DNA of 64,000 nucleotides. Origin: Rubrivivax sp. GTDB taxonomy: Bacteria; Pseudomonadota; Gammaproteobacteria; Burkholderiales; Burkholderiaceae_C. Shown here piece by piece: positions 5,855 through 61,001 of the stretch. The stretch is from contig JAEUPB010000036.1 in the NCBI GenBank assembly GCA_016789955.1, forward strand, positions 1 to 64,000. The letters are read 5' to 3'. Positions within the stretch are counted from its first letter, which is position 1. Each line of letters begins with the position of its first letter. Made by a program: the position numbers and the translations under genes. The notes beneath the pieces are model-generated. The model had not been told where the DNA came from. It saw nothing but the letters and a program-made list of their open reading frames with translations, and made no database searches.

Positions 5855-5917
5855 GGAGGTCTCCTCGGGGGTGTAGCGTCTACGGGGATGCGGAACGTCG
5901 CTGGCGCGCGTGGTGCG

Positions 5918-7766: not shown

Positions 7767-7788
7767 TGTCACCGCATCCGGCAGGGGT

Positions 7789-9117
7789 TCAGGGGCCGCA
7801 GCCCGGGGCCGGCGGCACGGCACCGGGCCCCCGGTTGCAGTGCTCGGCGAGGAAGATCAGCGGGGGCACCGCGCGGCGGTAGCTCATCGCAGCCGGGTCG
7901 TGCCCGGCGGCCGTGAGTTGCTGCCAGTAGTCGTCGCTGGTGTACTGCGCGAGCCGGTAGGCGGGGCCTGCGCGGTTGACGTTCCACGGAGCCCACGGCG
8001 CGTCACGCTGGATGTGAGGACCCAGCCGCGAGCGCAGGATCGCCACCTTCCCCACCGCCTCGAGCACGCGGCGCTCGAGGCGCACGAGCGTCGTGTCGTT
8101 GGGCGGCGCGTCGAGCCCGCAGCGCAACGCCGCGTCGCCGTACGGGCTGCAGCGCGCGCCGGCGAACCACTGGCGGCCGAGGTGGATGCGGCCCTGCCCG
8201 GCCAGGCCCAGTCCGTCGCTCGTGAAGTCGCAGTCGTCGAAGACGAAGCCGTGCGGCTGGTGGTAGGGCGTGCTCGCGGCGGTGATGTAGCCCGACCCCG
8301 CCGTCGCCCCGTGGCCCCGCGTGCCGCCCACCGAGCGGATCTCGCTGCGCTCGAAGAACGCGGTGGCGGCGCCGAAGATGAAGTCGACATCGCCCTCGAC
8401 GAGGCTGTCGCGCACCCACACGCGGGCGCGCGCGGCACCCTCGGGGATGCGCAGGTACAGCGTGTCCTGGTTGCCGATCAGGCGCACGCGGTCCAGCGCC
8501 ACGCGGTCGGCCTCGGTGGCCAGCGCCACGGCCTGGTGCAGGTTGCCCTCGGCGCTTTCGTCGTAGCGGTTCTCAACCGTCACGTTGCGCAGTTCGAAGC
8601 CGGCGTTGCGCACCCACAGCACCGGCGTGCAGTCGGTGCCGATGGCCGGCCGCGCCGCGCAGTCGGCGTACGGCGAGCCCGGCGGCAGCGCCCAGCGCCG
8701 CGCGAACTCGGCGCCGCTCATGCGGCTCCAGGCGGCGGCGTGCAGCCGCACGTCGGCCGGCGCCGCGCCCAGGCCCTGCAGCGTGATTGGCGCGCGCGTG
8801 GCCGGCACGAACACGATCTCGTCGTAGCGGCCCGGGGCCACGCCGATCACGACGCGGGCATCGCGCTCGCGCGCCAGTTCGGCGGCGCGTCGCACGGCGG
8901 CCTGGATCGTGGCGAACACCGAGCGGCCGTCGGCGCGCGGCGGATCCACGCGGAGTTCGGGCTCGACGGCTGGTGGCACGAGCGGCGGCTGCCAGTCGCC
9001 GAGCACCGCGGCGCGCGTGTACTGGAACGCCTGTTCGGCGCTGAGCTGCGGGCGCTGTGCCATCGCGCCGGACGCGGCCAGCGTGAGGGCGGTGGCGAGG
9101 GTCAGCAGAGCCTGCAT
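7789..9117 (-). CDS. Exported pectinesterase (carbohydrate esterase family 8)
   Basis: The 442-residue protein begins with a signal peptide (cleavage near ASGAMA-QRP) and has the right-handed beta-helix signature of CE8 pectin methylesterases. The active-site elements are present: Gln217-Asp218 in GNQDTLY, Asp245 in VDFIFG and Arg315 in LGRQW (usually LGRPW). It removes methyl esters from homogalacturonan so that lyases can cut the chain, acting in the periplasm or outside the cell. It sits between ogl and kdgR in the operon. A Cys-containing insert near residues 153-163 resembles the longer bacterial PemB/YbhC-type forms. Confidence 0.92.
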   Translation of the reverse strand: MQALLTLATALTLAASGAMAQRPQLSAEQAFQYTRAAVLGDWQPPLVPPAVEPELRVDPPRADGRSVFATIQAAVRRAAELARERDARVVIGVAPGRYDEIVFVPATRAPITLQGLGAAPADVRLHAAAWSRMSGAEFARRWALPPGSPYADCAARPAIGTDCTPVLWVRNAGFELRNVTVENRYDESAEGNLHQAVALATEADRVALDRVRLIGNQDTLYLRIPEGAARARVWVRDSLVEGDVDFIFGAATAFFERSEIRSVGGTRGHGATAGSGYITAASTPYHQPHGFVFDDCDFTSDGLGLAGQGRIHLGRQWFAGARCSPYGDAALRCGLDAPPNDTTLVRLERRVLEAVGKVAILRSRLGPHIQRDAPWAPWNVNRAGPAYRLAQYTSDDYWQQLTAAGHDPAAMSYRRAVPPLIFLAEHCNRGPGAVPPAPGCGP

Positions 9118-9148
9118 GGTCGGGCGGAGCTCGTGCGCGCGCCGGTGC

Positions 9149-10324
9149 CTACAGCGAGGCCAGGAACAGCCCCGGCTCGCCCGCCTTGTCGCAGCTGAAC
9201 AGCACCTGCCGTTCGTCGGGCGTGAACGACGGGTGCGGGTGCGTCACCTGCCGGTCGCCCTTGTAGACCTGCCACGAGCTGTCGTGCCGCGCGATGCGGC
9301 GCTCGGCCGGCTGCGCGCCGCGCAGGTCGAACAGGTGCAGGTACGGGTCCTCGCCGATCGTGTAGCCGCTGGTGTCGTCCACATCGGCGGGTGTGGCGCA
9401 GCCGTCGCCGACGATCAGCGTGCCGTCGTGGTTGCTCATCAGGTGCGAGCACGGCGGCATCGTCGTCAGCAGCCGGTCCTGCAGCGTGACCGGGTCGAGC
9501 GCGCGGATCTGCCGCTCGCTGTGCCCCTTCAGGTACGACACGTAGACCATCGCCGAGCCGTCGGGCACCCAGAACTCGTGCGTGCAGCTCTCGCCGGGCG
9601 CGTGTACCTTGCCGCAGCGCAGGTTGCTGCCGTCCTCGTCGATGAACCACATGCGCGCGTCGACGAGGTCGTGGTTGCCTTCGTGGCAGAAGGCCACCGT
9701 GCGGTCGTCGTACGGGCGGTACTGCGGGTGGCCGAGCCAGCAGTCGACCTCGTGGATGTCCTGCCGCTGCCCGGTGGCCAGGTCGATGCGGAACAGCCGG
9801 CAGCGGGGCTTGCGGAAGTACATCTCGCGGAACTTCTGCCAGTCGGTCAGCGGCATCCAGTCGCTGGCGCGGATCTCGATGCCGACCATCTTCGTGCACG
9901 CGGAGTTGGCCACCCAGGTGCCGTAGCCCACCCAGCCGTCGGGCACGGTGTAGGCCACCTCTTCATGCAGCGTGGCCATGTCCAGCCGGATCAGCTGCCG
10001 CTTGGCGCGCACGAAGTACAGGTGGCGGTCGTCGGGGCTGAGGAAGCCGCCGAAGGTGTTCTCGCCGGGCTGGTCGGTGAGCTGGCGGCAGGCGCCGGTG
10101 GCGAGGTCGAGCTGGTGGTAGTGCCAGTCGGTGCCGGGGCCGCCGAGATCGTCGAAACCGCCGCCGAACACCAGCGAGCGGCCGTCGGTGCCGAAGCACT
10201 TCTGATAGAAGTACATGCGGTGGCAGGTCACGTCCACCGGCGTGAGTCGCGTGACGCGCGCGCCGGTGTCGGGATCGGTGGAGACGTCGAACGTGAGCTG
10301 GCGGACCTGGTGCTTGGCCATCAT
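9149..10324 (-). CDS. ogl: Oligogalacturonate lyase (polysaccharide lyase family 22)
   Basis: The 391-residue cytoplasmic protein matches oligogalacturonide lyase, a seven-bladed propeller enzyme that splits (unsaturated) digalacturonate to 4-deoxy-5-ketouronate. Typical stretches include VTCHRMYFYQKCFGTDG near the N-terminus, WVGYGTWVANSACTKMVGIE, GHPQYRPYDDRTVAFCHEG (metal-site His/Gln region), SCTHEFWVPDGSAMVYVSY, SHLMSNHDGTLIVGDG and THPHPSFTPDERQVLFSCD, named as landmarks. Two consecutive ATG codons (10324 and 10321) can start it, and the first overlaps the TGA of togB as ATGA. Its product feeds KdgF and KduI. Confidence 0.93.
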   Translation of the reverse strand: MMAKHQVRQLTFDVSTDPDTGARVTRLTPVDVTCHRMYFYQKCFGTDGRSLVFGGGFDDLGGPGTDWHYHQLDLATGACRQLTDQPGENTFGGFLSPDDRHLYFVRAKRQLIRLDMATLHEEVAYTVPDGWVGYGTWVANSACTKMVGIEIRASDWMPLTDWQKFREMYFRKPRCRLFRIDLATGQRQDIHEVDCWLGHPQYRPYDDRTVAFCHEGNHDLVDARMWFIDEDGSNLRCGKVHAPGESCTHEFWVPDGSAMVYVSYLKGHSERQIRALDPVTLQDRLLTTMPPCSHLMSNHDGTLIVGDGCATPADVDDTSGYTIGEDPYLHLFDLRGAQPAERRIARHDSSWQVYKGDRQVTHPHPSFTPDERQVLFSCDKAGEPGLFLASL

Positions 10325-48477: not shown

Positions 48478-51400
48478 TCAGGCTAGAGGCGAGGCGTTGA
48501 TCGGCCGTTGATCGGCGTCGTTCAGCGTCGCGCGCAGCCGCGCGGCTTCCAGCGCCGGCACCGCACCGGCGGCCAGCAGGGCCTCGGCGCGGGCGCGCGG
48601 CTCGGCGTCGTCGAGGCCGGCGGCACGCGCCACGCGCAGGTGCTGCACCAGCAGCATCGCCAGCAGATCGGTCGCGGCCTCCGTGTGCGGGGGATGGTCG
48701 CGCAGCTCGGCCGCGGCACCGCCGAGGTCGCCTTCGGCCAGCGCCACCGCCGACGCCACCCAGGCGCGCAGCGCGCGTGCGTCGGCGCGGTCGACGGCCG
48801 CCGCCGCGGGCAGGAGTTCGCGCGCGCGCGCGACGTCGCCACGCTCCAGCGCCAGCCAGGCTCGCTTGCAGCCCACGGTGGCCTGCCAGCCCTGGCCCGC
48901 GCCGCCCCGGATGAGCGACTGCGCTTCCGCCAGCAGCGCCTCCGCGTGGTCGTGACGCCCGCTGAGGATCGCCAGGTCGCTGACGAGGTGCAGCGACCCC
49001 AGCAGGATCTGCTGCTCGGCCTCGCGACGGGCCATCGCGACGAGGTGATCCGCGGCGACCTCGGCGAGGCCCGTCTCGCCGCGCAGGCAATGGATGTAGT
49101 AGCGAGCCTGCAGGAACGCCTGCTCGGCGGCGAGGTGCTCGTACCACGGCGCGAGCCCCTCGCCCTCCTCCAGCAGCGCCAGCGCCACGTCGCTGCGGCC
49201 GGCGTCGGCGTGCAGCTTGACGAGGTTCAGGATGGCCGCTCGCTGCGCCGGCACCAGGCCCCAGCGGCGCGCCAGCGCCCGGGATCGTTCGAAGCGATCG
49301 ACCGCCGCGGCCCGGTCGCCCTGCACGTGCAGCGCGCACACGCCGTCCATCACGAGCGCGCCGGCGAGCTCGATCGGCTCGCCGGCCGCCTCCAGCGTGG
49401 CCACGGCGCGTCGCGCATAGGCCTGGGCCTCGGCACTGCGGCCGGACGTGACGAGGGTGCGCGACGCCGAGTCCAGCAGGTCGCCGAGCGTCACGAGCGC
49501 GTCCGGCACGCCCTGCAGCAGGCCGAACGCGGCCTCGTAGTGGCGCATCGCTGCGTCGGCGTTCCCGCCCCAGCCGGCCAGCGTGGCGCGCAGCGCGTGG
49601 GCCTTGGCGCGCTCGCGGGCCGGGGCGGCCGCCAGGTCGCCTTCGATCGCGTCGAGCAGCGCCAGCGCGGCCTCGGCCCGGTGCGCGCCGACCCACAGCT
49701 CGGCACAGGCCAGCCTCGCGCCGCGGCGTGCGTCGGCGGGCGCCTGCGCCGCGGCAGCGAGCGCCGCGTCGATGGACGCCTGCAGCGCCGGCGCGTCGGC
49801 GGCACGTCGGTGCAGCCGTGCCAGCGACAGCCACGCCTGCACCGCCTGTTCAGGCGCCGGGTGGTCGGCCAGCGCCGCGCGCCAGTGCTCGCCGGCCTGC
49901 GCCATCGCGTGCACGCGCCACGCGGCGTCGCCGGCACGCAGGCGGTGCTCGACCGCACGCGACGGCTCGCCGGCGCGCTCGAACTGCTCGGCCAGCACGG
50001 CCGGCGGGGCGCCGCGGGCCTGCAGCGCCGCCGCGAGCTGACGATGCCGCTGCCGGCGCAGCCGTGCGGGCTGCGCATCGGCCAGGCACTGGCGCACCAG
50101 GTCGTGCGCGTAGTGCCAGGTCCCCCCATGGTCCTCCAGCAGCCGTGCCGCGCCGGCGTGCTCGAGCAGGCCGTGCACCGCGGCCGGAGCGAGACCGGCG
50201 GCCGCGGCCAGCAGGTCGCTGTCCGGCGGGCCGTCCAGCAGGCTGGCGAGCTGCAGCAGGCGCTCGCCGTCGAGGCCCAGCGCACGCACGCGCGCCAGCA
50301 CCGCGTCGCGCACGCTGGCCGGCACCGGCAGCTCGGCATAGTCCTGCGTCGCGTCGTCGAACGGCGTGCTCCAGCGGCCGTGCTCGTCCACCCGCAGCAG
50401 CCCCTGCTGGTGCAGGTGGCGCAGCGTCTCGATCAGGAAGAACGGGTTGCCGCCGGTGGCTCGCTGCAGGCGGCGCGAGAACAGCCGCCCGCCGGGGGAG
50501 TTCGACAGCGCGTGCGTCAGCGCGAGCGTCTCGTCGGCGTCGAAGCCCTGCAGTTCCACCCACGCGGCGTGGCCGCCGTCGACCTCGCGGCGCATCTGCG
50601 CCAGCGCCGGCGGCGGCAGCTGCGCGCTGCGGTGGCAGGTGAGCCGCAGCGTCGCCGGCGGCGCCGCGGCATGCGTGCTCCACGCCTCGGCGCTGAGGTC
50701 GTCGGCCCACTGCCAGTCGTCGAGGACCAGCACGGCGTAGTTGTCGGCGGCCAGCAGGCCCAGCGCGGCGTCGATCGCCGAGCGCAGCCGCGCCCGGGCC
50801 TGCTCCTCGCCGGCCTGCGTCTGCGCCGGCGGCGGGCCCAGCTCGGGCAGCAGCTGGGACAGCTCGCGCTCGACCCAGCCGGGCAGCGCCACGTCCGGTG
50901 CGGCCGCGCGCAGCGCCCGCAGCAGCCGCACCACGGCGTTCCACGGCTGCACGCGGTCCGACGGCGAGCACGCCACCTGCAGCCACGGGCCCTGCGTCGC
51001 TGCGCACTCGGCGGCCAGCCGGGACTTGCCCACGCCCGACACGCCGGCCAGCCACACCGGCCGCCGCTGCGCCCAGGCCTGCAGGATCGCCGCGGTGGCC
51101 GCGGTGCGCGGCACGAACGGGACGCGCTCGGCGAACAGCCGCTGCGCCTGCGGCGCCGGCGCGCGCAGCGTGTCGGCCATGCGCTGCAGCGCCGCCGAAG
51201 GCTCCACGCCCAGCCGGTCGCGCAGCGCGGCGGCGGACAGCCCGTACCACGCCAGCGCCCGCGCCGGCCGGTTCGTGGCCGCCAGCCACTGCATCGCCGC
51301 GTCCAGGGCCTGCTCGTCGCAGGGATCGGCATCGAGCATGGCCTCCACCCGCGCCAGCGCCGACTCGACGTCGCCACGCTCGTGCGCCTCGCGGGCCTCG

Positions 51401-51825
51401 GCCAGGCGGTGCCGCTGCTGCCGCGTAGCCAGCAGCGCGCGGCGCTCGCGCAGCCAGCCCGCCAGCGCGTCCTCGCCGGGCTCGGGCTCGGCCAGCCATG
51501 CCAGCGGCGCGCCGGCCGCCGCGGAGGCGGCGTCCGACTCGGCCGGCAACGGGTGCTCGAGCGACAGCCGGCCGCCGCGCTCGGCGTCGTCGAAGCGCAC
51601 GCCCAGCTCGCGCAGGCGGAACACCTCGCGGCGCAGGTTGCGGCGCGCGGCGGCGGACTCCAGCGCCGGCCACAGCCACGCCGCCAGCGCCTCGCGCGGC
51701 TGCGGACCATCCACCGCGAGCAGCGCCAGCAGCGCCAGCGCCTTGCGTGCGCGCGGGTGGATCGGCTGCCCGTCGCGCAGCAGCGCGGCAGGGCCGTACA
51801 ACCTCAGCTCGAGCGGGGCCTCCAT
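48478..51825 (-). CDS. SARP/AfsR-type transcriptional regulator with BTAD, NTPase and TPR domains
   Basis: The 1115-residue protein starts MEAPLELRLYGPAALLRDG, the pattern of the OmpR-like winged-helix domain of SARP regulators (about 1-90). A bacterial transcriptional activation domain follows (about 95-225, ending LRDRLGVEPSAALQRM). A STAND-type NTPase region has Walker A GVSGVGKS at 261-268 and Walker B VLVLDD at 365-370. The rest (about 600-1115) is alpha-helical with TPR-like repeats. Such proteins sense a signal through the NTPase/TPR part and activate at direct repeats. The ATG at 51825 begins at the first conserved strand; longer extensions in frame have no homology. Confidence 0.88.
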   Translation of the reverse strand: MEAPLELRLYGPAALLRDGQPIHPRARKALALLALLAVDGPQPREALAAWLWPALESAAARRNLRREVFRLRELGVRFDDAERGGRLSLEHPLPAESDAASAAAGAPLAWLAEPEPGEDALAGWLRERRALLATRQQRHRLAEAREAHERGDVESALARVEAMLDADPCDEQALDAAMQWLAATNRPARALAWYGLSAAALRDRLGVEPSAALQRMADTLRAPAPQAQRLFAERVPFVPRTAATAAILQAWAQRRPVWLAGVSGVGKSRLAAECAATQGPWLQVACSPSDRVQPWNAVVRLLRALRAAAPDVALPGWVERELSQLLPELGPPPAQTQAGEEQARARLRSAIDAALGLLAADNYAVLVLDDWQWADDLSAEAWSTHAAAPPATLRLTCHRSAQLPPPALAQMRREVDGGHAAWVELQGFDADETLALTHALSNSPGGRLFSRRLQRATGGNPFFLIETLRHLHQQGLLRVDEHGRWSTPFDDATQDYAELPVPASVRDAVLARVRALGLDGERLLQLASLLDGPPDSDLLAAAAGLAPAAVHGLLEHAGAARLLEDHGGTWHYAHDLVRQCLADAQPARLRRQRHRQLAAALQARGAPPAVLAEQFERAGEPSRAVEHRLRAGDAAWRVHAMAQAGEHWRAALADHPAPEQAVQAWLSLARLHRRAADAPALQASIDAALAAAAQAPADARRGARLACAELWVGAHRAEAALALLDAIEGDLAAAPARERAKAHALRATLAGWGGNADAAMRHYEAAFGLLQGVPDALVTLGDLLDSASRTLVTSGRSAEAQAYARRAVATLEAAGEPIELAGALVMDGVCALHVQGDRAAAVDRFERSRALARRWGLVPAQRAAILNLVKLHADAGRSDVALALLEEGEGLAPWYEHLAAEQAFLQARYYIHCLRGETGLAEVAADHLVAMARREAEQQILLGSLHLVSDLAILSGRHDHAEALLAEAQSLIRGGAGQGWQATVGCKRAWLALERGDVARARELLPAAAAVDRADARALRAWVASAVALAEGDLGGAAAELRDHPPHTEAATDLLAMLLVQHLRVARAAGLDDAEPRARAEALLAAGAVPALEAARLRATLNDADQRPINASPLA
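48495..48516 (-). promoter_or_regulatory. Second perfect 11-bp tandem direct repeat inside the 3' end of the SARP gene
   Basis: CGTTGATCGGC occurs twice without a gap; on the minus strand this reads GCCGATCAACG twice and shares CGATCAACG with the tandem at 47046-47067. It encodes residues near the regulator's C-terminus (DQRPINA) and lies 34 bp upstream of the start of the small gene at 48461. It may be a promoter-proximal operator for the small genes, or a coincidence of coding sequence. Confidence 0.4.
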
Positions 51826-51854
51826 GCGGCCGCAGTGTGCCCGCCTCGGGGCGC

Positions 51855-52709
51855 TCAGCCCCCGATCGCGAAGAAGCTCGCGTGGTCCGCGTCGAAGGCG
51901 CGGAAGCCCGCGGCCAGCGCGGCGCGGGCGGCGGCGGGGTCGCCGGTGGTCAGGTAGCGCAGCGCCAGGCGCGCACCGGCGCACGCGTGGTCGAAGTGGT
52001 CGGCCTCGACGCCGCCGCCGTGGCCGCTGTGCACGCCGACCCAGGCGTAGCAGCGGTGCGTGCCGCCGGCCAGCGGCACCGTCGTGCGTTTCAGGTGCTC
52101 GAACAGTGCGGCGCGGCGGCCGCGCAGGTGCTCGTCGAGCAGCGAGAACTCGCGGTCGGCGAGCAGCTCGGAGCCGAGGTGGTAGCCGATCGCGGCAAAG
52201 ACCTGCGCCGATGAGCCTGCCGCGCCGGCACGCACCCCGGTGTAGCCGTCGAGCACGCCGTCATTCAGCGCCTGCAGCGCGGGCGGCTCGGGTTCGTCGA
52301 GCAGTTCGGGCGGCAGGCCGAGGTGCTCGCGCATCGCGATCAGGGACGCCTGCGCCATGCAGCGGTGCGAGTCGCGCTCGGGGTTGATGTGATCGTCGTA
52401 CTCGTCGCGCGCGGCATCGAAGAAGAAGCTCGCGATGTAGTTGGCGCGGTCGGACGCGGCGCGCGGATAGCCCGGCTCGCGGAACAGGTCGCGCTGCCGG
52501 CTGACGAGGCTCGTCAGCGCCGCCACGCCGCCGGCGAAGGCGCCGTTCCACGACGCGTACTGCACGAAGAAGCGCAGCAGCGCGGCATCGGCGTCGAGCT
52601 GCAGCAGCCGCTCGCGCACGCGATGCTCGACCGCGGCGAAGTCGACCAGCGTGCGCAGCCAGTCGGCGTCGATTGACGCGGCCGACGAGTCGAGCGAGGT
52701 GCTGGTCAC
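51855..52709 (-). CDS. Unknown helical protein, possibly haem-oxygenase-like fold
   Basis: I do not recognise this 284-residue soluble protein. It is mostly helical, Ala-rich, with clusters of possible metal ligands: ARDEYDDHINPERDSHRC (about residues 100-117) and HSGHGGGVEADHFDHAC near residue 235. Spaced Glu/Asp and His in helices recall diiron haem-oxygenase-like oxidases, but this is weak. GTG 52709 is preferred over an upstream ATG at 52754 because AAGAAGGA precedes it. It lies between the SARP gene (29 bp after it) and repeat copy D, so it may be transcribed with either neighbour. Confidence 0.65.
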   Translation of the reverse strand: MTSTSLDSSAASIDADWLRTLVDFAAVEHRVRERLLQLDADAALLRFFVQYASWNGAFAGGVAALTSLVSRQRDLFREPGYPRAASDRANYIASFFFDAARDEYDDHINPERDSHRCMAQASLIAMREHLGLPPELLDEPEPPALQALNDGVLDGYTGVRAGAAGSSAQVFAAIGYHLGSELLADREFSLLDEHLRGRRAALFEHLKRTTVPLAGGTHRCYAWVGVHSGHGGGVEADHFDHACAGARLALRYLTTGDPAAARAALAAGFRAFDADHASFFAIGG

Positions 52710-52773
52710 GATGGCTTGTCCTTCTTTCAGTGCGTCACGCCGCCGAATCCGCATGTGGGACGCCCGAAAGGTT

Positions 52774-52865: not shown

Positions 52866-53303
52866 TCACAGTTCCTTGGCCAGCGCCGCGACCGACTCGG
52901 CGTCGGGCAGGTGCGCCAGCGTGCCCAGCAGCGCGTCCTGCACCTGCACGTGCAGCTGAGCGAAGTGCTCGCTGGAGACCCCCAGCGCCGACGCGATGGT
53001 GTGCACGTGCTGGCGCTCGGCGGTGCTGAGCTTGCCGTCGGCATAGCCGGTCACGAGGCACATGCGCACCACCTCCTGCGCGAAGTCGGGATCGGCCCGA
53101 ACGGCGTCGATCGGCGCCTGCTCAGGGCCGGGCGCGTTCAGGATCTGCTCGAACGCCGGCAAGTCCGGCTGTTGCTGGGTGGCGTGGAAGCTGCGCAGCA
53201 GCTCGATCTCCTGCGGCTGCAGGCCGTCGACGCGGGCCGTGGCGAGCATGCATTCGATGAGCGCCACCACCTGGGTGGGCGGGAAGAGTCCGGTGTCGGC
53301 CAT
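52866..53303 (-). CDS. TerB-like tellurite-resistance family protein
   Basis: The 145-residue helical protein has the two acidic DG motifs of TerB-type proteins, RVDGLQPQEIELL and YADGKLSTAER, each with Asp and Glu able to bind a metal, set about 66 residues apart. TerB domains act in the cytoplasm close to the membrane and link metal ions to membrane-stress complexes in other systems. It is the last gene of the minus-strand set with the AAA+ ATPase (34 bp upstream), PspA-like protein and ABC transporter. Repeat copy D follows its stop directly. Confidence 0.8.
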   Translation of the reverse strand: MADTGLFPPTQVVALIECMLATARVDGLQPQEIELLRSFHATQQQPDLPAFEQILNAPGPEQAPIDAVRADPDFAQEVVRMCLVTGYADGKLSTAERQHVHTIASALGVSSEHFAQLHVQVQDALLGTLAHLPDAESVAALAKEL

Positions 53304-53337
53304 GGGTGCTCCTGTGCGGGCGGAGAGGGTGCGGTGG

Positions 53338-55149
53338 TCAGCGGCCGAGCGCGCGCACGCGGGCGTCGCGCAGGCCGTGCTGGATCTCGTCGATGGACAG
53401 TCGGGCGAACCGTTCGGGCAACAGCGATCGGCGCGAGGTCTCCGAAACCGCCAGCAGCTCCATGAAGCGGATCATGTCGCCTTCCTGCGGCGGCATGAAG
53501 TCGTCCTTCGCGCGCTGCAGCGCCTGCACGAGCGTGAGCGCCGGTCCGCGCTGCCGGAACTCCAGGCCCAGCAGCGTCATCGCCTCGAGGTCGGCGTTCG
53601 AATAGCCGTGCAGCGACTCGCAGAGCGACGCCAGCTCGGCGGCGTCCCAGGCGAGCGCGCCGTCGTAGCGGCGCAGCACCGCCGCCACCACGGCGGCGCG
53701 GTCGGCCGCGTTGTCCGCGTAGAAGAACGGGATCTTGCGGTCCATGCGGCCGGGGCGCTTGATGTCGGTGTCGAGCTTGTCGGGGCGGTTCGTCAGCATG
53801 ATGAACAGCACGCGGCCGCGGTTCTCGGTGTCCGACATGAACTCCTTGAGCCGCGCGATGACGCGCGAGCTGGTGCCTTCGTCGCCGCCTTCGCCGCCCG
53901 AGTTGCCGAAGCTTCGGTCGCCTTCGTCGATCAGCACCGCGATCGGGCCCATCGCCTTGACGGTGGCGAGCACGCGCTCGAGGTTGCGCTCGGTCGAGCC
54001 CACCCACTTCGAGCGGAAGTTCTTCAGCGCCACCGCCGACAAGCCGGCCTCCTTCAGGAACGCCTTGATGACGAAGGTCTTGCCGGCGCCCATCGGGCCG
54101 ACGGCCAGCAGCCCCATCGGCGTGAGCTTGGTGTCGCCGTCGCGCAGCGCGCGGGCGATCTCGTTCAGCTCGCCGGTGATGTGTTGCGCGCCGCCCACCG
54201 CCGCGAGGCCGTGCTTCGGCTCGACGAACTCGATCAGCCCGGCGCACTCCTTCTCGATCAGCTCGCGCTTGCGGGCGTGGATCAGCGCCAGCACGTCGGC
54301 GTCGGGGTCTGCGGCGGCCGCCGGCAGCGTCTTCGTCGGCTCGACGAGCTTGACGATCTCGTCGGCCGTCATGCCGGCGGTGATGCCTGCGAACCGGCGC
54401 GCGCGCTCGGCGGCGCCCGGCGTGTCGCCGAGCAGCTGCAGGATCAGCTTCTCGCGCTCGGGCTCGCTCATCGCGGCGTCGCCCGAGGCGCGCATCAGGC
54501 TCTCGATCTGCACCGCGCGCAGCCCGGCCATGCGTTCGGCGTAGCGCATCACGCGCTTCTCGTCGAGCTTGGCGTCGAGCGCACGCACGACCTCGGCGCG
54601 CGTGGCGAGGTCGGGCATCGGGATCTCGATCGCCGCCACCTTCGGGTTGGTCAGCAGCGACTGGTTCAGCGCGCCCAGCGCCTCGACGATGATCAGCGTG
54701 ATGTTGTCCGAGGCGTTCAGCGTGCGGTCCAGCGACCAGCGGTGGAACAGCGTGCCGACCTGCCGGTCCTCGGACGAGACGAACGAGGCGTCCTCCCCCG
54801 GCATGAGCGTATCGGCGTAGGGCACCACGATGGCCGTGCCGGGGGTGGTGCGCAGGTGGCGTTCGAGGCTGTGCAGCTGCTCGAGCATCGTGCCGCCGCG
54901 GTCGAGCACCACGTCGCCCTTCACCACCTGCACCCCGAACTCGGCCGACACCTCCACCACCGTGGGCTTGGTGCCCGACAGGAAGGCGCCGGTAAGGAAG
55001 GTCTTCAGGTCGACGAAGCTGCCCCCGACGCGGAAGATGTCGAACACGTTGCGGTACAGCACGAACGTCGACGCCTCGCCCGCGAGGTACTTCTCGCGGA
55101 CGGTGGCCGCCCAAGCAGGCAGTGCGACGGGGACGGCAGGTGGGTTCAC
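53338..55149 (-). CDS. AAA+ ATPase with degenerate first ATPase-like half
   Basis: The 603-residue protein has one full AAA+ domain at about 315-500: Walker A GPMGAGKT (351-358), Walker B AVLIDEGD (404-411), sensor Asn454 in LTNRPD and arginine fingers in KRPGRMDRK. The first half (about 25-215) resembles an ATPase domain lacking a Walker A, with DNITLIIVEALGALNQSLL at the sensor position. The GTG at 55149 overlaps the stop of the PspA-like gene (GTGA), so the two are coupled. A likely role is remodelling of the PspA/ESCRT-III-like partner, as Vps4 does; that is inference. Confidence 0.85.
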   Translation of the reverse strand: MNPPAVPVALPAWAATVREKYLAGEASTFVLYRNVFDIFRVGGSFVDLKTFLTGAFLSGTKPTVVEVSAEFGVQVVKGDVVLDRGGTMLEQLHSLERHLRTTPGTAIVVPYADTLMPGEDASFVSSEDRQVGTLFHRWSLDRTLNASDNITLIIVEALGALNQSLLTNPKVAAIEIPMPDLATRAEVVRALDAKLDEKRVMRYAERMAGLRAVQIESLMRASGDAAMSEPEREKLILQLLGDTPGAAERARRFAGITAGMTADEIVKLVEPTKTLPAAAADPDADVLALIHARKRELIEKECAGLIEFVEPKHGLAAVGGAQHITGELNEIARALRDGDTKLTPMGLLAVGPMGAGKTFVIKAFLKEAGLSAVALKNFRSKWVGSTERNLERVLATVKAMGPIAVLIDEGDRSFGNSGGEGGDEGTSSRVIARLKEFMSDTENRGRVLFIMLTNRPDKLDTDIKRPGRMDRKIPFFYADNAADRAAVVAAVLRRYDGALAWDAAELASLCESLHGYSNADLEAMTLLGLEFRQRGPALTLVQALQRAKDDFMPPQEGDMIRFMELLAVSETSRRSLLPERFARLSIDEIQHGLRDARVRALGR

Positions 55150-55862
55150 AGGCTCTTGCCGGAGGTGCCGCCCGCCGCTTCGGCCGCGCGAGCCTTCTTC
55201 ATCTGCTCGAGCTGCGCGCGCGCAGTGACGGCGGCACCGCTGCGCGTCAGGCTCTGCAGCCGCACGTCGAGGTCGGAGCGGCGCAGCTCGGCGCCGAGCT
55301 TGGCCTCGGCGACGCGGCCCTTGATGTGGTCGCGCACGCCCGACAGCGCCTTCACGTCGGCGTCGACCGAGAGCCCGTCGAGCGACTCCTGGATCTTCAG
55401 CCGCGCCTCGGCACTCTGGAACTTGGCGATCATGCGGTCCTTCTCGGCCTTGAGGCGGTCGATCTCGCCCTTGATCTCCAGCAGCTGCGACTTGGCCTCC
55501 TCGGCGTCGGTGTCGGCCTCCTGGAAGTCGGCCTCCAGCGCCTTCACGTCCTCGTCGAGCGCGTTCTTCTTCTGGATCAGCACCAGCGCCAGGTCGTCCT
55601 GGTTGGTGCCCAGCGCGGCATTGAGCTGCGTGGCGACCTTCTCCAGCTCGGCGCGGGCGGACTGAAGCCGGTCCTCGATCTCCAGCCGCCGCGCGATGAT
55701 GCGGCCCGACGCCTGCTTGAGCTTGGCGTACTTCTCGGTCATCGACGCGATCGAGTTCTGGTACGCGATCTCGGGGTGCTGCTTCTCGATGTCGGTCACC
55801 CACAGGGCGACGAACCCGGTCCACAGATTCCACAGACGACCCATGATGGCGTTGTCGGCCAT
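55146..55862 (-). CDS. PspA/IM30-like (ESCRT-III family) membrane-associated protein
   Basis: The 238-residue protein is almost wholly helical and charged, with long coiled coils (EIEDRLQSARAELEKVATQL; EEAKSQLLEIKGEIDRLKAEKDRMI) and an amphipathic, Trp-rich N-terminus (GRLWNLWTGFVALWV) suited to membrane binding. This matches the PspA/Vipp1 design, though the start differs from classical PspA. Such proteins polymerise on damaged inner membrane. It is translationally coupled to the AAA+ ATPase gene. Classical pspBC or pspF are absent nearby. Confidence 0.8.
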   Translation of the reverse strand: MADNAIMGRLWNLWTGFVALWVTDIEKQHPEIAYQNSIASMTEKYAKLKQASGRIIARRLEIEDRLQSARAELEKVATQLNAALGTNQDDLALVLIQKKNALDEDVKALEADFQEADTDAEEAKSQLLEIKGEIDRLKAEKDRMIAKFQSAEARLKIQESLDGLSVDADVKALSGVRDHIKGRVAEAKLGAELRRSDLDVRLQSLTRSGAAVTARAQLEQMKKARAAEAAGGTSGKSL

Positions 55863-55880
55863 GTGCTTCCCCTTTTGCAG

Positions 55881-56738
55881 TTAATGACGTTCACCGACGG
55901 CGCGCCGCTCGCGGGCGGGCGCTGCCGTGCCCTTCACCGGCACCGCGAAGTCGGGCACGGTGGTGGAACGGTCGAGGTCCCTCGCGGCTTCCTCCGCGAG
56001 GCGCAACTTCGAGACCGACTCCTCGAGCATCTGGGAGAGGTTGCCTTCCTGCGGCGAGGTCATCACCATCTGGTAGACCTCCTCCAGCCGCACCGGCATG
56101 GACAGCAGCGTCGCCTCGAGCGCGCTGCGGCGCGAGGCCATGCGCATCTGCCGCGCGATGGCCTCCTCGTACTCGGCCTTGGCCTGGCGCAGCTGCAGTT
56201 CCTCGTCGCGCGAGAGGCCGCCCTTCTCCAGGCGCTTCTCGAGGTCGCGCAGCTTGTACTCCACGGCCGGCGGCAGCGACTGCCCGCCGCGCTGCACCGC
56301 GTCGGACAGCGTGAGCCGCAGGTAGTCGACGGTGAGGTCCTCGAGCTGCTCGATCTCGCGCGGCGTCAGCGAGGTGCTGCGGTCGCCGGCCATGCGGTAG
56401 AGCGACTGCACGCGCGAGGTCATCTTCTCGTAGTGCTGCAGGTGCGGGCTGCCCCCGTGCGAATGGATCTCGGCGAGCAGCCGTTCGCGGCGGCCGTCGC
56501 GAACGCGGGCGCGTTCGCGACGATCCACCCACTGCCGGAACGGCCCCAGCGACGGCACGGTCGCCAGCCCCACCATCTCCACCGCGGCCAGCGCCACGAG
56601 GCCGATGCCCAGTCCGTCGCCGCCCCAGGGCACCGACAGCAGCACCGAGCCGGCCAGCATCGCCAGCACCACCATGCGGTTGGCCGGGTGCTTGAGGAAC
56701 TCCAGCCAGTACGACGGGCCGTCGTCGTCGCTGCTCAT
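55881..56738 (-). CDS. Membrane protein of unknown function with coiled-coil tail
   Basis: The 285-residue protein has two close membrane helices near the N-terminus (about 22-38 and 43-62), then a ~220-residue cytoplasmic charged helical part with ERLLAEIHSHGGSPHLQHYEKM, DLEKRLEKGGLSRDEELQLRQAKAEYEEA and a final disordered tail. I recognise no family. Its place between the ABC ATPase (10 bp) and PspA-like gene (18 bp) suggests it is a membrane anchor or adaptor for the complex. Confidence 0.7.
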   Translation of the reverse strand: MSSDDDGPSYWLEFLKHPANRMVVLAMLAGSVLLSVPWGGDGLGIGLVALAAVEMVGLATVPSLGPFRQWVDRRERARVRDGRRERLLAEIHSHGGSPHLQHYEKMTSRVQSLYRMAGDRSTSLTPREIEQLEDLTVDYLRLTLSDAVQRGGQSLPPAVEYKLRDLEKRLEKGGLSRDEELQLRQAKAEYEEAIARQMRMASRRSALEATLLSMPVRLEEVYQMVMTSPQEGNLSQMLEESVSKLRLAEEAARDLDRSTTVPDFAVPVKGTAAPARERRAVGERH

Positions 56739-56748
56739 CGCCCGGCTC

Positions 56749-57588
56749 TCACACGCTCACCCGCACGTTGCCGCGCGCGCCCGACGCTCGCAGGTGCGCC
56801 ACCACGCGCTCGTGCAGCGAGCGGGCGTGGTCGCCCGACAGCCAGCCTTGCGTGCGCGGCTTGGGCTCGCCGATGGCGAAGTCGTCGATGATGCGCGCCG
56901 GCTGCGTCGAGAGCACCGTCACGCGGTCGCCGACCAGCAGCGCCTCGGTGACGTCGTGCGTGACGAAGACCACCACGCAGGGGTGCGCGGCGTGCAGCTT
57001 GATCAACAGCGTCTGCATCGCGGTGCGCGTCTGTGCATCGAGCGCGCCGAAGGGTTCGTCCATCAGCAGCACACGCGGCCGCAGCACGAGGGAACGCGCG
57101 AGCGCCACACGCTGGTTCTGCCCGCCCGAGAGCTGCGACGGGTAGAGGTCGCGCTTGTCCGCCAGGCCCACCTCGTCGAGCATCGCGTCCACGCGCTGCG
57201 CCGCCTCGGCGGCCGGCACGCGGCGGCGCCACTCGGCGAAGCGGAACGGGTACAGCACGTTCTCGCGCACGGTCAGGTCGGGCCTGTTGGCATAGCTCTG
57301 GAACACCATCACGGTGTCGGGGTGCGGGCCGGTGCACGGCTGGCCGTCGATCTGCACCGCGCCCGAAGTCGGTGTGGTCACGTTCCACGGCCGCACGCCG
57401 CCGAGCATGCGCAGCAGCGTCGACTTGCCGCAGCCCGAAGGCCCCAGCAGCATGTTGATCGACGGCCGCTCGAACGCCAGGCTCACGCCGTCGAGCACGC
57501 GCAGCATCTTGCCGTCGGGCTGCAGGTACTCCTGCACGATGTCGGTGGCCGAGACGAGCGGGGCGGCGGCGGCAGTCGCGGCGCTCAT
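56749..57588 (-). CDS. ABC transporter ATPase of the NitT/TauT type
   Basis: The 279-residue ATPase has Walker A GPSGCGKST, Q-loop FQSYANRPDLTV, signature LSGGQNQRVALAR, Walker B VLLMDEPFGALD and H-loop THDVTEA, all intact. Its closest relatives are the nitrate/sulfonate/taurine import ATPases. It starts at 57588, overlapping the permease stop by 4 bp. With the permease and the receptor-OmpA fusion it forms a complete ABC importer inside the PspA/AAA+ set. Confidence 0.93.
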   Translation of the reverse strand: MSAATAAAAPLVSATDIVQEYLQPDGKMLRVLDGVSLAFERPSINMLLGPSGCGKSTLLRMLGGVRPWNVTTPTSGAVQIDGQPCTGPHPDTVMVFQSYANRPDLTVRENVLYPFRFAEWRRRVPAAEAAQRVDAMLDEVGLADKRDLYPSQLSGGQNQRVALARSLVLRPRVLLMDEPFGALDAQTRTAMQTLLIKLHAAHPCVVVFVTHDVTEALLVGDRVTVLSTQPARIIDDFAIGEPKPRTQGWLSGDHARSLHERVVAHLRASGARGNVRVSV

Positions 57589-58379
57589 GTCTGCGTCTCC
57601 CACTTGAAGAAGCGGCGCTTGAGCCACATCAGCGTCTGGTACGTCAGCAGCGCCACCGCGATGATCACGATGATGCCGGCGAAGACCTGGTCCATCGCCG
57701 AAAGGCGCCGTGCGTTGGCGATCAGCTGCCCGAGGCCTTCCTGCGCGTTCACGTACTCCGCCACGGTGATGTAGGTCCAGCTCACCGAGACGCCGACGAT
57801 GATCGCGTCCATGATGCGTGGCATCGCCAGCGGCACCAGCACCTTCATGATGCATTCCCACGGCGTGGCGCCGATGTCCTTGGCGGCGATCAGGTACTGC
57901 TCGGGCACGGCGCGCACGGCGTCGCGCACCAGCGGCGTGAGGTAGACGATCGAGCCGACGAACAGGAAGGCGATCTTCATGAACTCGCCGATGCCGAACC
58001 ACATCACCATGATCGGCAGCAGCGCGGCCACCGGCGCCGAGCGGAACGGGTCGATCAGCGGCGAGAACACCGCATTGAGCCGCGGCGAGGCGCCCATCAG
58101 CACGCCCAGCGGCACGCCGATCACGATGACCAGCAGCGATGCCGCCGCCACGCGGCCCACCGACCACATCGTGGCCACCGCCAGCGCGCTCTTGCCTTCG
58201 TACCAGCCGAGGTAGATCAGCGCCTCGGCCACCGCCAGCGGCGAGGGCAGCTGGTTCTTCGACAGCAGCCCCGACGCCGACAGCAGCGCCCACACGACGA
58301 CGACCGCGCCGACGCTGGCCGCGCCGATCACGCGCTGCTGCGCCGGCGGCAGCGCGCGGTAGGGATTCCAGAAATCCAT
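57585..58379 (-). CDS. ABC transporter permease of the NitT/TauT type
   Basis: The 264-residue inner-membrane protein has about six helices and the family EAA-like loop QYLIAAKDIGATPWECIMKVLVPLAMP. It begins 3 bp after the receptor-OmpA gene and overlaps the ATPase gene. The segment PFRSAPVAALLPIMVMWFGIG is typical of nitrate/taurine permeases. The cargo is unknown; the unusual anchored receptor suggests it may serve sensing or envelope tethering as much as uptake. Confidence 0.92.
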   Translation of the reverse strand: MDFWNPYRALPPAQQRVIGAASVGAVVVVWALLSASGLLSKNQLPSPLAVAEALIYLGWYEGKSALAVATMWSVGRVAAASLLVIVIGVPLGVLMGASPRLNAVFSPLIDPFRSAPVAALLPIMVMWFGIGEFMKIAFLFVGSIVYLTPLVRDAVRAVPEQYLIAAKDIGATPWECIMKVLVPLAMPRIMDAIIVGVSVSWTYITVAEYVNAQEGLGQLIANARRLSAMDQVFAGIIVIIAVALLTYQTLMWLKRRFFKWETQT

Positions 58380-58382
58380 GCG

Positions 58383-60083
58383 CTATCTGCCGAACACCGC
58401 CAGGCGCGTCGAGCGGTTCAGCGAGCGGCACTCGTCCAGCGTCATGTCGGCCGACTGCGGCGCGTTCTCGTCGCACAGCGGCTTGCCAGAGCCCTGGCCG
58501 CTGACGCGCAGCCGCGCCGCGGGGATCTCCCACTGCTTCTCGAGGTATGCGGCCACGGCCTTGGCGCGGGACAGCGACAGCGCCTGGTTGGCCGCCGCCG
58601 ATCCCACCGAGTCGGTGTGGCCCGAGAGTTCGAAGTACGCGCGGCCGTTGTTCTCGATGAACGGCACCATTTCCTTGTCGATGACCTGCTGCGCGCGCTT
58701 GGAGAGTTCCGACGAACCCGACGCGAAGGTCACCGAGACCGGTTTCGTCACCGCCGCGGGTGCGGTCATCGCTTCCTTGCGGCCCTGCTCGGTGAAGGTC
58801 TGCGTCGGCTTGGCGGCGGTCTCCTGCGCGGCGGTGTTGCGCGCCAGCGCGGCCTTCACGAAGCGGTAGTCGTAGCTCTCCTGCGGCGGGATCACCGGCG
58901 ACTTCGGATTGGCCAGCGAGCCGGCGCCGCGGTAGATCTCGTCGAAGCGCGCGTAGACGCGCTCGTAGTGGTTGGTGCCGCCCACGAGGCCGAGGATGCG
59001 CGCGTTGTCGGCCAGGTCGGTCCACACCAGGTTGGCGAACAGGCCCTTCACGAACGGCTTGCCTTCCTTGCCGGCCAGCAGCTTGAAGAACTCCTGCGTG
59101 GCCACCAGCGCCTCCACCGCGTTGTCGGGGTTCGCGCGCGCGGCCGTGACGCCTTCCAGCCAGCCGTCGTGGAACTTCTGGAACAGCGCCTCGTTGTCGG
59201 GCTTGGACAGCTCGCGCTGGTCGCAGACCATGACGTCGTAGATCAGGTTGGTGGCGGTCTTGGTGGAATAGATGGCGCGCGACCCTTTCACGTCGCGCAG
59301 CGCCAGCGAGAGGTCGGGGTCCCACAGCACGGCGGCGTCGACGTTGCCGGCGACGAAAGCCGCGCGCACCCCGGCGGTGCCCTCCTCGGGCTTGATGAAG
59401 ACCGTCTTCACCTGCTTCTTGGCGCGCGCCGTCATCGACGAGCTCTCGATCGCGTCGATCAGCATGCCGTGCGACGGCGTGTACTGCAGCAGCGCCACGC
59501 TCTTGCCGGTGAGGTCCTCGACCTTCTGGATGGCCGGGTCGCGCGCGATGACCGCGTCGCCGCCCTGCGTGTTGTCGACGATCACCACGGCGCGGCCGTC
59601 ATGGCCGGAATTGCGCAGGTTGGGCTGTTCCTGCGCCCAGAAGTCCGACGTGCGCCACGCGCACTGCGCGGCCTTCGACTCGAACAGCGTGGTCAGCGTC
59701 GGGATGTCGTCGTTGATGACGAACTCGACGTGCACGCCGAGCTTGTCGTAGATCGAGCCGGGCTTGGTCTTCAGGCTGTTGCCGTTGGCCACCAGCGCCG
59801 GCGCGTAGCCGTGGAAGCTGACCAGGCTCACCTTCAGCGGGTTGGTGGGGCTGCCGAGCTTGCCGGTGCCCGCGGGCGCCGCGGCAGGTGCCTTGCCGGG
59901 CGCGGGCGTGGCCGCGGCGGTCTTGCCGGCACCGGCGTCCTTGGCCGGCGCCTCCGCGGCGGCCTTCGGGGCGCCGCCACCGAAGCGATCCTTGAGAAAG
60001 AAGTTCCAGCCGATCGACGCCAGCGCGCCGAGGCCGATCAGCACCAGCAGCACCTTGGTCAGCGGGCCCATTCCGTATCTCAT
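58383..60083 (-). CDS. Membrane-anchored NMT1-like solute receptor fused to an OmpA domain
   Basis: The 566-residue protein has an uncleaved N-terminal helix (about 8-24), a Pro/Ala-rich linker to about 70, a periplasmic binding domain of the NMT1/TauA type (about 80-430: VSLVSFHGYAPALV, GGDAVIARDPAI, LTGKSVALLQYTPSHGMLID, VDAAVLWDPDLS) and a C-terminal OmpA domain (about 450-566: FASGSSELSKRAQQVID; LSGHTDSVGSAAANQALSLSRAKAVAAYL; NRSTRLAVFGR). One end is in the inner membrane and the other should bind peptidoglycan. The OmpA Asp and Arg positions for diaminopimelate binding look present. It is directly upstream of its permease. Confidence 0.9.
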   Translation of the reverse strand: MRYGMGPLTKVLLVLIGLGALASIGWNFFLKDRFGGGAPKAAAEAPAKDAGAGKTAAATPAPGKAPAAAPAGTGKLGSPTNPLKVSLVSFHGYAPALVANGNSLKTKPGSIYDKLGVHVEFVINDDIPTLTTLFESKAAQCAWRTSDFWAQEQPNLRNSGHDGRAVVIVDNTQGGDAVIARDPAIQKVEDLTGKSVALLQYTPSHGMLIDAIESSSMTARAKKQVKTVFIKPEEGTAGVRAAFVAGNVDAAVLWDPDLSLALRDVKGSRAIYSTKTATNLIYDVMVCDQRELSKPDNEALFQKFHDGWLEGVTAARANPDNAVEALVATQEFFKLLAGKEGKPFVKGLFANLVWTDLADNARILGLVGGTNHYERVYARFDEIYRGAGSLANPKSPVIPPQESYDYRFVKAALARNTAAQETAAKPTQTFTEQGRKEAMTAPAAVTKPVSVTFASGSSELSKRAQQVIDKEMVPFIENNGRAYFELSGHTDSVGSAAANQALSLSRAKAVAAYLEKQWEIPAARLRVSGQGSGKPLCDENAPQSADMTLDECRSLNRSTRLAVFGR

Positions 60084-60185
60084 GTCGTGCCTGTCCTCAC
60101 AGCGGGTGGAGAGATCGTACGCATCCGCGTCGCCGCGGCCGGACCGCCATGGCCCTGCCGTCTGCGCGATCCGCGGGTCTCGCGG

Positions 60186-60866
60186 CTATGCCGTCGACGT
60201 GCCGGCGAATTGTGCGATGAGTCCGTTCAGCGTCGCGGTGGTGCGCGTGAGCGTCGCGAGTTCCTGGTTCGCGGCCTCGCGCTGCATGTGCAGTGCTGCT
60301 TCGAGCGACGCATGCTCCTGCGTGCCACGGGCGATCTCGCGTGCCAGCAGCCCTTCGAGGTCGGCGATCTGGCGGCGGATGTCGGCCAGCGTGCGTTCCT
60401 GCTGCTGCGCGAGCTGTTCGCGTCGGGCTTGCGTGTCCTGCTCGGCGCGGGCCAGCGCCGCGCGCACGCCCGACGCATGGCGCTCGAGTGCCGCCACCTT
60501 GGCGGCGGCGTCGCGCCGCGGGTCGTCGATCGACCAGCTGTCGTCGGCGGCGTCAATGGCGCGGATGGTCGTGAGGCGTGTCGCCTCGTCCATCGCCTTC
60601 AGGCCGTCGATCAGGCGCAGCAGCCGCTCGGCAGGGTAGGGGCTGGGCGGCACGCCGGCTGCGGCGTAGATCTGCTCGAGCGTCAGCCCCGGCGCGGCGG
60701 CCTCGACGGGCGCGGCGGCTCCGGCCGGTTCCATCGCCACCTCGGGTTCGGCGGGGGCGTAGGCCTCGGCGGCGGGCTCCTCGGGGAGCGCGGTGTCGGC
60801 GCCGGGGGTCTCCCCCAGGCGGCGGACGAGTCCGGCCTTCTCGAGCAGGTCGAACATGCCCTTCAT
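60186..60866 (-). CDS. Soluble coiled-coil protein, first gene of the PspA/AAA+/ABC set
   Basis: The 226-residue protein has a short N-terminal helix (MKGMFDLLEKAGLVRRL), an acidic Pro/Ala-rich linker, a conserved-looking LTLEQIYAAAGVPPSPYPAERLLRLIDGL, then a long coiled coil (RRDAAAKVAALERHASGVRAALARAEQD and EQLAQQQERTLADIRRQIADLEGLL). I recognise no family. It lies 102 bp upstream of the receptor-OmpA gene on the same strand. Its coiled coil could pair with the PspA-like or the membrane coiled-coil protein; that is only inference. Confidence 0.7.
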   Translation of the reverse strand: MKGMFDLLEKAGLVRRLGETPGADTALPEEPAAEAYAPAEPEVAMEPAGAAAPVEAAAPGLTLEQIYAAAGVPPSPYPAERLLRLIDGLKAMDEATRLTTIRAIDAADDSWSIDDPRRDAAAKVAALERHASGVRAALARAEQDTQARREQLAQQQERTLADIRRQIADLEGLLAREIARGTQEHASLEAALHMQREAANQELATLTRTTATLNGLIAQFAGTSTA

Positions 60867-61001
60867 CGGAACTCCTTCTGGCGTGGGCTCGTGGGGCGCA
60901 TCGGCACGTGCGGGGGATCATCCCCTGCGCGCCGAACGGGTGTCAATCGAAGCGCGATGATGCACGCCCCCTTGTTCGTAGCCTTGCCCTGAGCTGCACC
61001 C

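Follow-up and report, generated by a model that had tools for sequence, protein, structure and literature searches.

The window analyzed here, 64,000 nucleotides of a Rubrivivax sp. genome (assembly GCA_016789955.1, about 80% complete; contig JAEUPB010000036.1, positions 1–64,000), carries on its (−) strand between positions 52866 and 60866 a set of eight genes. These encode, in this order, a coiled-coil protein (cc1), a solute-binding receptor with a peptidoglycan-binding domain (sbpOmpA), the permease and ATPase of an ATP-binding cassette (ABC) importer, a membrane coiled-coil protein (mcc), a PspA/IM30-family protein (pspA), a tandem AAA+ protein (aaa), and a TerB-domain protein (terB). In related loci the receptor is exchanged for unrelated ones, and many of these loci show no match to the permease. 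The reading that we favor, although we put it slightly short of an even chance, is that the wall-tethered receptor would act via a conserved transmembrane (TM) helix on mcc and from there on a PspA polymer, with the AAA+ protein as remodeler and the importer as an optional part.

Genomes were scanned for relatives of the system with an alignment of four AAA+ sequences, and the best 80 of the 432 loci were analyzed. All eight genes are present in the same order as in the window in 27 of these 80 loci, and eight more lack a TerB match only. Because this order recurs in relatives, the arrangement of the genes is not due to chance. Solute-binding receptors with a peptidoglycan-binding domain are encoded in 71 loci (71 of the 76 with enough upstream sequence), mostly between cc1 and mcc, and belong to three unrelated kinds; among the nine loci without a receptor, contig ends truncate L035, L036, L064, and L106. 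Kind I (41 loci) is the NMT1-like receptor with OmpA domain of the window and is accompanied by permease and ATPase in 41/41 loci, a few of which have other gene orders or cut contigs (L082, L097, L100, L112, L113, and L114). Permease matches are confined to these 41 of the 80 loci. In kind II (26 loci), a PotF-like protein with PG_binding_1 domains (potPG) and a separate TM-Sel1 protein replace receptor, permease, and ATPase, and, as one of many tight junctions in the loci, that between potPG and mcc is shorter than 60 bp in 22 of the 26. According to the Pfam annotation of one example, the kind II receptor begins with a signal-peptide-like segment and contains SBP_bac_8 besides two copies of PG_binding_1. 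The binding domain groups with PotF/SpuD (E 7.8e-66 to 3ttk), and alignment to SpuD revealed that it keeps W-x-D-Y, G-[FY]-S-G-D, and a later Asp position, which we take to be the polyamine contacts of SpuD. From this family membership and these aligned residues, a polyamine is a candidate ligand of kind II. Kind III (4 loci) is a TM protein with SBP_bac_3 and LysM domains (one example, Pfam), whose binding domain matches amino-acid binding proteins with an E-value of 7.5e-13. Across the kinds, the family of the binding domain and the wall-binding domain switch together, and the linkage of a solute-binding domain to peptidoglycan is constant.

The history of these exchanges was approached with a tree of 90 AAA+ proteins (from 79 of the 80 loci, all longer than 560 aa, the window, and 10 others; quick search, midpoint root). 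Kind III forms one clade (support 100), as does kind II (support 99, with two receptor-free loci within), the latter being sister to the window's clade inside a set of 32 rows (support 100). Kind I extends across Acidobacteriota, Myxococcota, Thermodesulfobacteriota, and Pseudomonadota; L097, L128, and L111 form long branches whose own places in the tree are unsure. Since kinds II and III are single clades and kind I is spread over four phyla, the tree is most simply explained if kind I is ancestral among the three kinds and the receptor was replaced at least twice.

Judged by sequence similarity, kinds I to III have an N-terminal TM helix in common, which was not detected in all receptors of the system. 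A profile made from the first 34 residues of 35 of 38 kind I receptors was run unfiltered against 19,598 reading frames of 124 sequences and matched 72 frames below an E-value of 1e-3, including 37 kind I receptors and that of the window. It recovered 23 of 23 TM-Sel1 proteins (1e-10 to 9e-15) and all four LysM receptors (2e-9 to 4e-10), as well as seven receptors of the Acidobacteriota and Myxococcota samples (L112, L114, L115, L117, L130, L131, and L132); the receptors of L113 (0.0025) and L116 (0.012) came next, and otherwise nothing was found below E 1. Outside the TM segment, profile comparison detected no similarity among kind I, kind II, and Sel1 proteins, and 28 similar columns between kinds I and III (2.6e-5). 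Profile alignments were made without proteins that have a stop in their row or at most 75% of the median length; the row of L108 begins too early, its stop preceding the true start. Because the helix accompanies otherwise unrelated extracellular parts, it behaves as expected of a docking part for a constant partner.

The ABC importer had been regarded in the preliminary description as one half of a single system, the other being the PspA/AAA+/TerB part. This idea held for the receptor, which is bound to the system in all our samples and is not usually found apart from it, and failed in part for the importer, whose place as a necessary component was not supported. No match to the window permease was found in the sequence around any of the 30 kind II and III loci, in 11 of which the upstream genes were also read by eye. 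In a fourth form, found in L033 (genome G372) and L034 (G284), pspA and aaa are followed by genes for a TM coiled-coil protein and for a TM protein with solute-binding protein (SBP) and OmpA domains, with neither permease nor ATPase between or beside them; Pfam detects NMT1 in L033 and not in L034, the protein of which was aligned by eye. Both genomes had been listed as having pspA and aaa alone, an assignment that was dropped when annotation with hidden Markov models revealed the two genes behind. Likewise, L129 (G911) combines a weak mcc match, aaa, pspA, and an SBP-OmpA gene with no adjacent importer. Close to the fourth-form operon, L033 contains a gene (5475–6236) whose product presumably is TerC-like.

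A second sample of 40 Acidobacteriota and Myxococcota regions (L115–L154, with L134 being the genome of L111 again) contains a receptor in nine cases (L115–L117 and L127–L132); in L117 Pfam found the OmpA part only, in L127 the ATPase was recognized and the permease was not, and L154 has terB only, beside aaa. As a small unit of pspA, a TM coiled-coil gene, and aaa recurs in L122, L124, and L125, the receptor looks like an input that was added onto this core. The regions L135–L154 represent a tandem AAA+ subfamily of the Myxococcota sample that mostly has no recognized PspA-type partner nearby, and L126 of the Acidobacteriota sample (7459–9311) encodes two PspA-like matches, aaa, and an mcc-like gene with no recognized receptor.

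The preliminary description had proposed to search genomes for co-occurrence of the receptor-OmpA fusion with the PspA-like and AAA+ genes and for conservation of their order. Besides the order seen in the 80 loci, co-occurrence of receptor and AAA+ protein was observed at the genome level. Among 399 genomes of the window's family, the AAA+ protein is encoded in seven (E ≤ 1e-60) and the OmpA receptor in three (E ≤ 1e-30), all of which are among the seven (hypergeometric P 3.3e-6, kinship ignored); receptor and aaa are linked in G754 and in the window. The remaining four AAA+ genomes carry a PotF-like receptor of 81–83% identity, linked to aaa and starting 3.2 kb upstream of the aaa start, which was found in those four only among 319 family genomes (E 1e-80). 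In a phylum sample of 398 genomes, AAA+ matches below 1e-40 occur in four, namely the window's, G154 (52% identity over the full length), G372, and G284 (both 34%, partial). With the L112 protein as query (E 1e-60), 19 of 227 and 52 of 217 genomes of two other phyla were positive, centre genomes included. No match to the AAA+ protein (E 1e-30) or the receptor (1e-20) was obtained among 72,556 plasmid records.

In the window itself (Table 1), strand, span, and order of the eight genes agree with those given before, and from their order we regard them as operon-like. From the first to the last gene, the gaps are 102, 3, −4, 10, 18, −4, and 34 bp, so that the earlier count of six out of seven junctions below 40 bp and two 4-bp overlaps was correct, and Pfam confirmed the assigned product families (NMT1-like with OmpA, permease, ATPase, PspA-like, AAA+, and TerB-like). 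The promoter-like site upstream of cc1 is the sole one in the 9.8 kb scanned (51.5–61.3 kb), where shuffled sequences lead one to expect 0.2; it is a consensus match alone. All eight genes of the original list are real, and a ninth downstream of terB (orf9) had been overlooked.

Table 1. Features of the operon-like gene set in the window, listed from the upstream end.
Feature	Position	Strand	Description
Promoter-like site	60917..60946	−	TTGACA-18-GATGAT; 50 bp upstream of cc1; 10/12 consensus matches
cc1	60186..60866	−	226 aa; N-terminal domain conserved and helical in appearance, followed by a coiled-coil-like part; hydropathy indicates no TM
Receptor, sbpOmpA	58383..60083	−	566 aa; TM anchor, NMT1/SsuA-like solute-binding domain, OmpA peptidoglycan-binding domain
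Receptor, TM anchor	59991..60074	−	Residues 4–31; kind common to unrelated receptors of relatives; own profile match 5e-5
Receptor, solute-binding domain	59106..59828	−	Residues 86–326; TIGR03427 2e-17, TIGR01728 1.3e-17, both below cut-offs
Receptor, OmpA domain	58449..58730	−	Residues 452–545; Pfam OmpA
ABC permease	57585..58379	−	TauC-like; BPD_transp_1 8.7e-25 (Pfam)
ABC ATPase	56749..57588	−	ABC_tran 4.6e-29 (Pfam)
mcc	55881..56738	−	285 aa; membrane coiled-coil protein; hydrophobic segments 22–40 and 40–65, then coiled-coil-like part
pspA	55146..55862	−	238 aa; PspA/IM30 family; PspA_IM30 3.1e-20, 73.2 bits vs cut-off 33.9
aaa	53338..55149	−	603 aa; GTG start; tandem AAA+ protein; AAA 9.4e-25 (Pfam)
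aaa, degenerate domain	54451..54864	−	Residues about 96–233; matches Cdc48/VCP D1, best E 1.3e-5
aaa, active-type domain	53725..54108	−	Residues 348–475; Walker A/B, sensor 1, arginine fingers
terB	52866..53303	−	145 aa; TerB 2.2e-10 (Pfam)
orf9	51855..52754	−	299 aa; 111 bp downstream of terB

The receptor of the window matches NMT1 (2.7e-5) and OmpA (3.2e-17) in Pfam, and its permease and ATPase neighbors complete an adjacent set of taurine/sulfonate/nitrate-type families, for which the NCBIfam matches shown are all below their cut-offs. D491 and R506 of its OmpA domain are invariant in 42 of 42 aligned rows; we take these Asp and Arg positions to be the peptidoglycan-binding residues known from OmpA structures, and their conservation is consistent with such binding here. 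For PDB searches and residue counts the window was aligned with 19 of the 80 loci for the receptor, and with 29 loci for mcc, 20 for cc1, and 9 for orf9. Neither cc1 nor mcc matched a Pfam family above the cut-off. The pspA product is the sole PF04012 match in the window's assembly; a single match to the PspA family was counted in each of G000, G511, G435, G372, G284, and G794.

The AAA+ protein is best read as a tandem AAA protein with a degenerate, Cdc48-D1-like and an active domain rather than as a Vps4, because residues of about 96–233 match Cdc48/VCP D1 in a profile of its N-terminal part (alignment of 16 of the 80 loci). This match, obtained against PDB sequences at profile positions 96–232, starts past the expected location of Walker A. 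Pfam recognized no second AAA domain, and the attempt to demonstrate an internal duplication by direct comparison of N- and C-terminal profiles was negative, the N-terminal profile matching Cdc48/VCP D1 instead. In the C-terminal domain, 81 of 81 AAA+ sequences retain the residues of Walker A, Walker B, sensor 1, and the arginine fingers; the exceptions are positions 2 (0.93) and 5 (0.36) of Walker A, a single position of Walker B (0.99), and the RPGR proline (0.85). PspA is a member of the ESCRT-III superfamily (PMC8281802), and as in ESCRT-III/Vps4 the window combines a superfamily protein with an adjacent classic-type AAA ATPase; unlike Vps4, however, this ATPase is a tandem protein with no Pfam match to MIT or Vps4_C (E up to 0.1).

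From these data we infer the following chain of contacts. The receptor, anchored in the inner membrane and clamped to peptidoglycan by its last domain, would sense a periplasmic ligand or the spacing between membrane and wall, and its state might be passed via the conserved N-terminal TM helix to the adjoining mcc with its two TM segments. In turn, mcc could control how a polymer of PspA/ESCRT-III type forms at the inner leaflet, and the tandem AAA+ protein would remove PspA subunits from this polymer. This scheme keeps the suggestion of the preliminary description that a receptor held at the wall reports to the PspA/AAA+ machine. Accessory roles would fall to cc1, TerB, and orf9, and in the window's form the optional permease/ATPase pair may also import the ligand that the receptor binds.

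Several observations weigh against this scheme. On the side of the receptor, the core lacks a recognized one in five of 76 loci (L052, L083, L089, L098, and L111), as do seven of the 40 Acidobacteriota/Myxococcota regions, all seven with pspA and/or mcc beside aaa (L122, L124–L126, L133, L137, and L150; L133 has a 19-bit match on the other strand, 4.5 kb away), and in 23 of the 40 neither pspA, mcc, receptor, permease, nor terB was recognized, the AAA+ protein mostly belonging to a more distant subfamily. Selection of the 80 loci by AAA+ similarity leaves distant forms under-sampled, and of the three genomes with both genes only two show linkage, the third (G423) having its receptor and AAA+ genes on separate contigs. 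The TM profile misses the fourth-form receptors (L033, L034, L128, and L129 are not within E 10, and L127 scores at 1.4), and in kind II the TM anchor resides on the separate Sel1 protein, for which a second contact must be assumed. With regard to the proposed relay, mcc has no sequence similarity to PspA or ESCRT-III chains, so that the sequence gives no support to its being an ESCRT-III homolog, and the junction between mcc and pspA is below 60 bp in just 15 of 36 kind I loci (L082, L097, and L112–L114 left aside). As for the importer, another ABC set stands upstream of cc1 in the kind II loci L040 and L044, ABC-ATPase matches occur downstream on the opposite strand in L041 (kind II) and L096 (kind III), and the contigs of L041, L048, and L049 are cut upstream; receptors without an adjacent transporter could serve permeases encoded elsewhere.

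The importer is central to one alternative, by which PspA, mcc, and the AAA+ protein would assemble, protect, or cluster the ABC transporter and the OmpA domain would keep the binding protein near the permease. Its constant presence in kind I fits this explanation, as do the mean identities over 38 kind I loci, where permease (75.8%), receptor (71.5%), and ATPase (71.3%) are the best-conserved proteins ahead of PspA (67.9%) and AAA+ (61.6%), and it comes near to the published suggestion of membrane remodeling linked to solute transport (Ravi et al., 2024; PMC11237479). However, the same core occurs with other receptors and no match to this permease in 30 of 30 loci and has no adjacent importer in L033, L034, and L129, and we consider a service to the transporter unlikely. 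A similarly small chance is given to a mechanical sensor or spacer, for which attachment to peptidoglycan would be the essential property: the receptor would signal turgor or the distance between wall and membrane, and its solute-binding domain would no longer have a ligand. That each kind of receptor has a peptidoglycan-binding domain even though its family changes (OmpA, PG_binding_1, LysM) would agree with such a function, and so would the invariant Asp and Arg of the OmpA domain; a ligand-binding domain, on the other hand, was retained every time, kind I receptors have a mean column identity of 74% (20 whole receptors), and the PotF-like domain keeps the positions aligned to the presumed polyamine contacts of SpuD. 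Finally, the importer and a PspA/AAA+/TerB stress module might be two or more adjoining operons with unrelated work. The pspA-mcc-aaa units without a recognized receptor in L122, L124, and L125 of the Acidobacteriota sample and the pspA-aaa-terB loci without ABC genes (L052, L089, and L098) speak for this, whereas gene overlaps, an order kept in several phyla, the position of cc1 beyond the receptor genes, and the restriction of the receptor to AAA+-bearing genomes of the family sample make it very improbable and largely refute it.

The receptor-to-PspA scheme does not describe a categorically new system, because the kind I operon has been published before: in contrast to the preliminary description, which considered the combination undescribed, Ravi et al. 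(2024; PMC11237479) report an operon that combines homologs of PspA and TM-Snf7 with an AAA+ ATPase, an ABC ATPase, a permease, and a PBPB-OmpA protein (e.g., OGG56892.1). By gene content the window is a member of this group, sharing PspA, the TM coiled coil, AAA+, ABC ATPase, permease, and SBP-OmpA protein, and the inactive N-terminal AAA domain noted for some clades (PMC11237479) is also seen here. As a possible counterpart of the Snf7-TM protein of that operon, the window has mcc, a TM coiled coil in whose sequence no similarity to PspA or ESCRT-III chains was found. The main text of that publication (PMC11237479) mentions neither TerB nor LysM, and the passages compared here contain nothing on cc1, orf9, an exchange of receptors, a helix common to them, or forms lacking the transporter; the receptor exchange, with its transporter-free forms, and the TM helix common to kinds I to III appear new relative to the published operon. 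No further publication on this combination was found in the open-licence PMC literature.

Other known systems share individual parts. For an archaeal Cdc48-like VAT, a gene of weak PspA similarity is described upstream (PMC11188069), a likeness by description rather than by sequence comparison; the passage concerns archaea and names no receptor or importer. The canonical Psp system (PspF-ABC) has PspA_IM30 in common, but Pfam matched no PspB, PspC, or PspF among the window's eight proteins, which include a receptor and AAA+ protein instead. Taurine/sulfonate/nitrate importers and PotF/SpuD provide the same families of binding domains, permease, and ATPase, whereas the binding proteins of the operon are membrane-anchored and/or wall-binding and several forms have no adjacent transporter. 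With tellurite (Ter) loci only the TerB domain is shared, no other ter domain (TerC, TerD, etc.) being found by Pfam among the eight proteins. A role in anti-phage defence was rejected, as matches to PADLOC models were limited to shared ATPase, OmpA, or coiled-coil parts (ZorB OmpA part 6.7e-6, PbeC 5.4e-5, and ATPase parts of Mad3, Mad8, IetA, and AriA).

Whether PspA and Vipp1 have an ATPase of the Vps4 type is left undecided in the literature: the matter is called 'not clear' for PspF and Vipp1 (PMC8281802), and how PspA regulates its assembly without an AAA partner is stated to be unknown (PMC11237479). In the operon, PspA is genetically tied to a tandem AAA+ protein and, as newly seen here, to an input side whose constant part in kinds I to III is the TM helix. 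Exchange of the receptor separates the core of PspA, TM coiled coil, and AAA+ from its input, and together the exchangeable receptor with its shared helix and the dispensable transporter change the most likely role of the system. The natural receptor swaps could be tested in cultured environmental bacteria such as Hydrogenophaga, Chitinimonas, and Aquabacterium. It is conceivable, though in our estimation less likely than not, that the system stands for a general class of transmembrane signaling, in which interchangeable peptidoglycan-tethered receptors of sulfonate/taurine-, polyamine-, and amino-acid-like types signal through one TM helix to an ESCRT-III/AAA+ machinery and thereby shape the membrane instead of transcription. 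If so, external nutrients or polyamines would directly set the remodeling of the inner membrane.

Homologs of cc1 and of the TerB protein occur in 64 and 63 of the 80 loci, respectively. The ninth gene, orf9, has homologs upstream of pspA in nine of the 80 loci, mostly gammaproteobacterial (L072 is labelled Burkholderiales), and matched nothing in Pfam, NCBIfam, or the PDB. It has strongly conserved His, Glu, and Asp positions and is regarded as an accessory member, possibly an enzyme; a diiron or haem-oxygenase-like fold would be a guess from the His/Glu positions. The receptor-free loci of G154 (L098) and G791 (L089) have the order pspA-aaa-terB-orf9, and in both genomes a second match to the PspA family scores higher (E 1.6e-41 and 3.1e-39). 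A search for receptors elsewhere in receptor-free genomes (profile A4, E 1e-10) yielded none in G791 and G794 and matches to the OmpA part only in G154 and G795, with a profile that is weak for distant forms and missed the fourth-form receptors of G372, G284, and G911. The additional ABC importer set upstream of the kind II operon in the two Hydrogenophaga loci (239–3568 in L040, and L044) presumably is YnjBCD-like. On the (−) strand downstream of the operon, the window also encodes a large protein of the transcriptional-activator type with BTAD and AAA_16 domains (48478–51984, scanned as 48478–51825).

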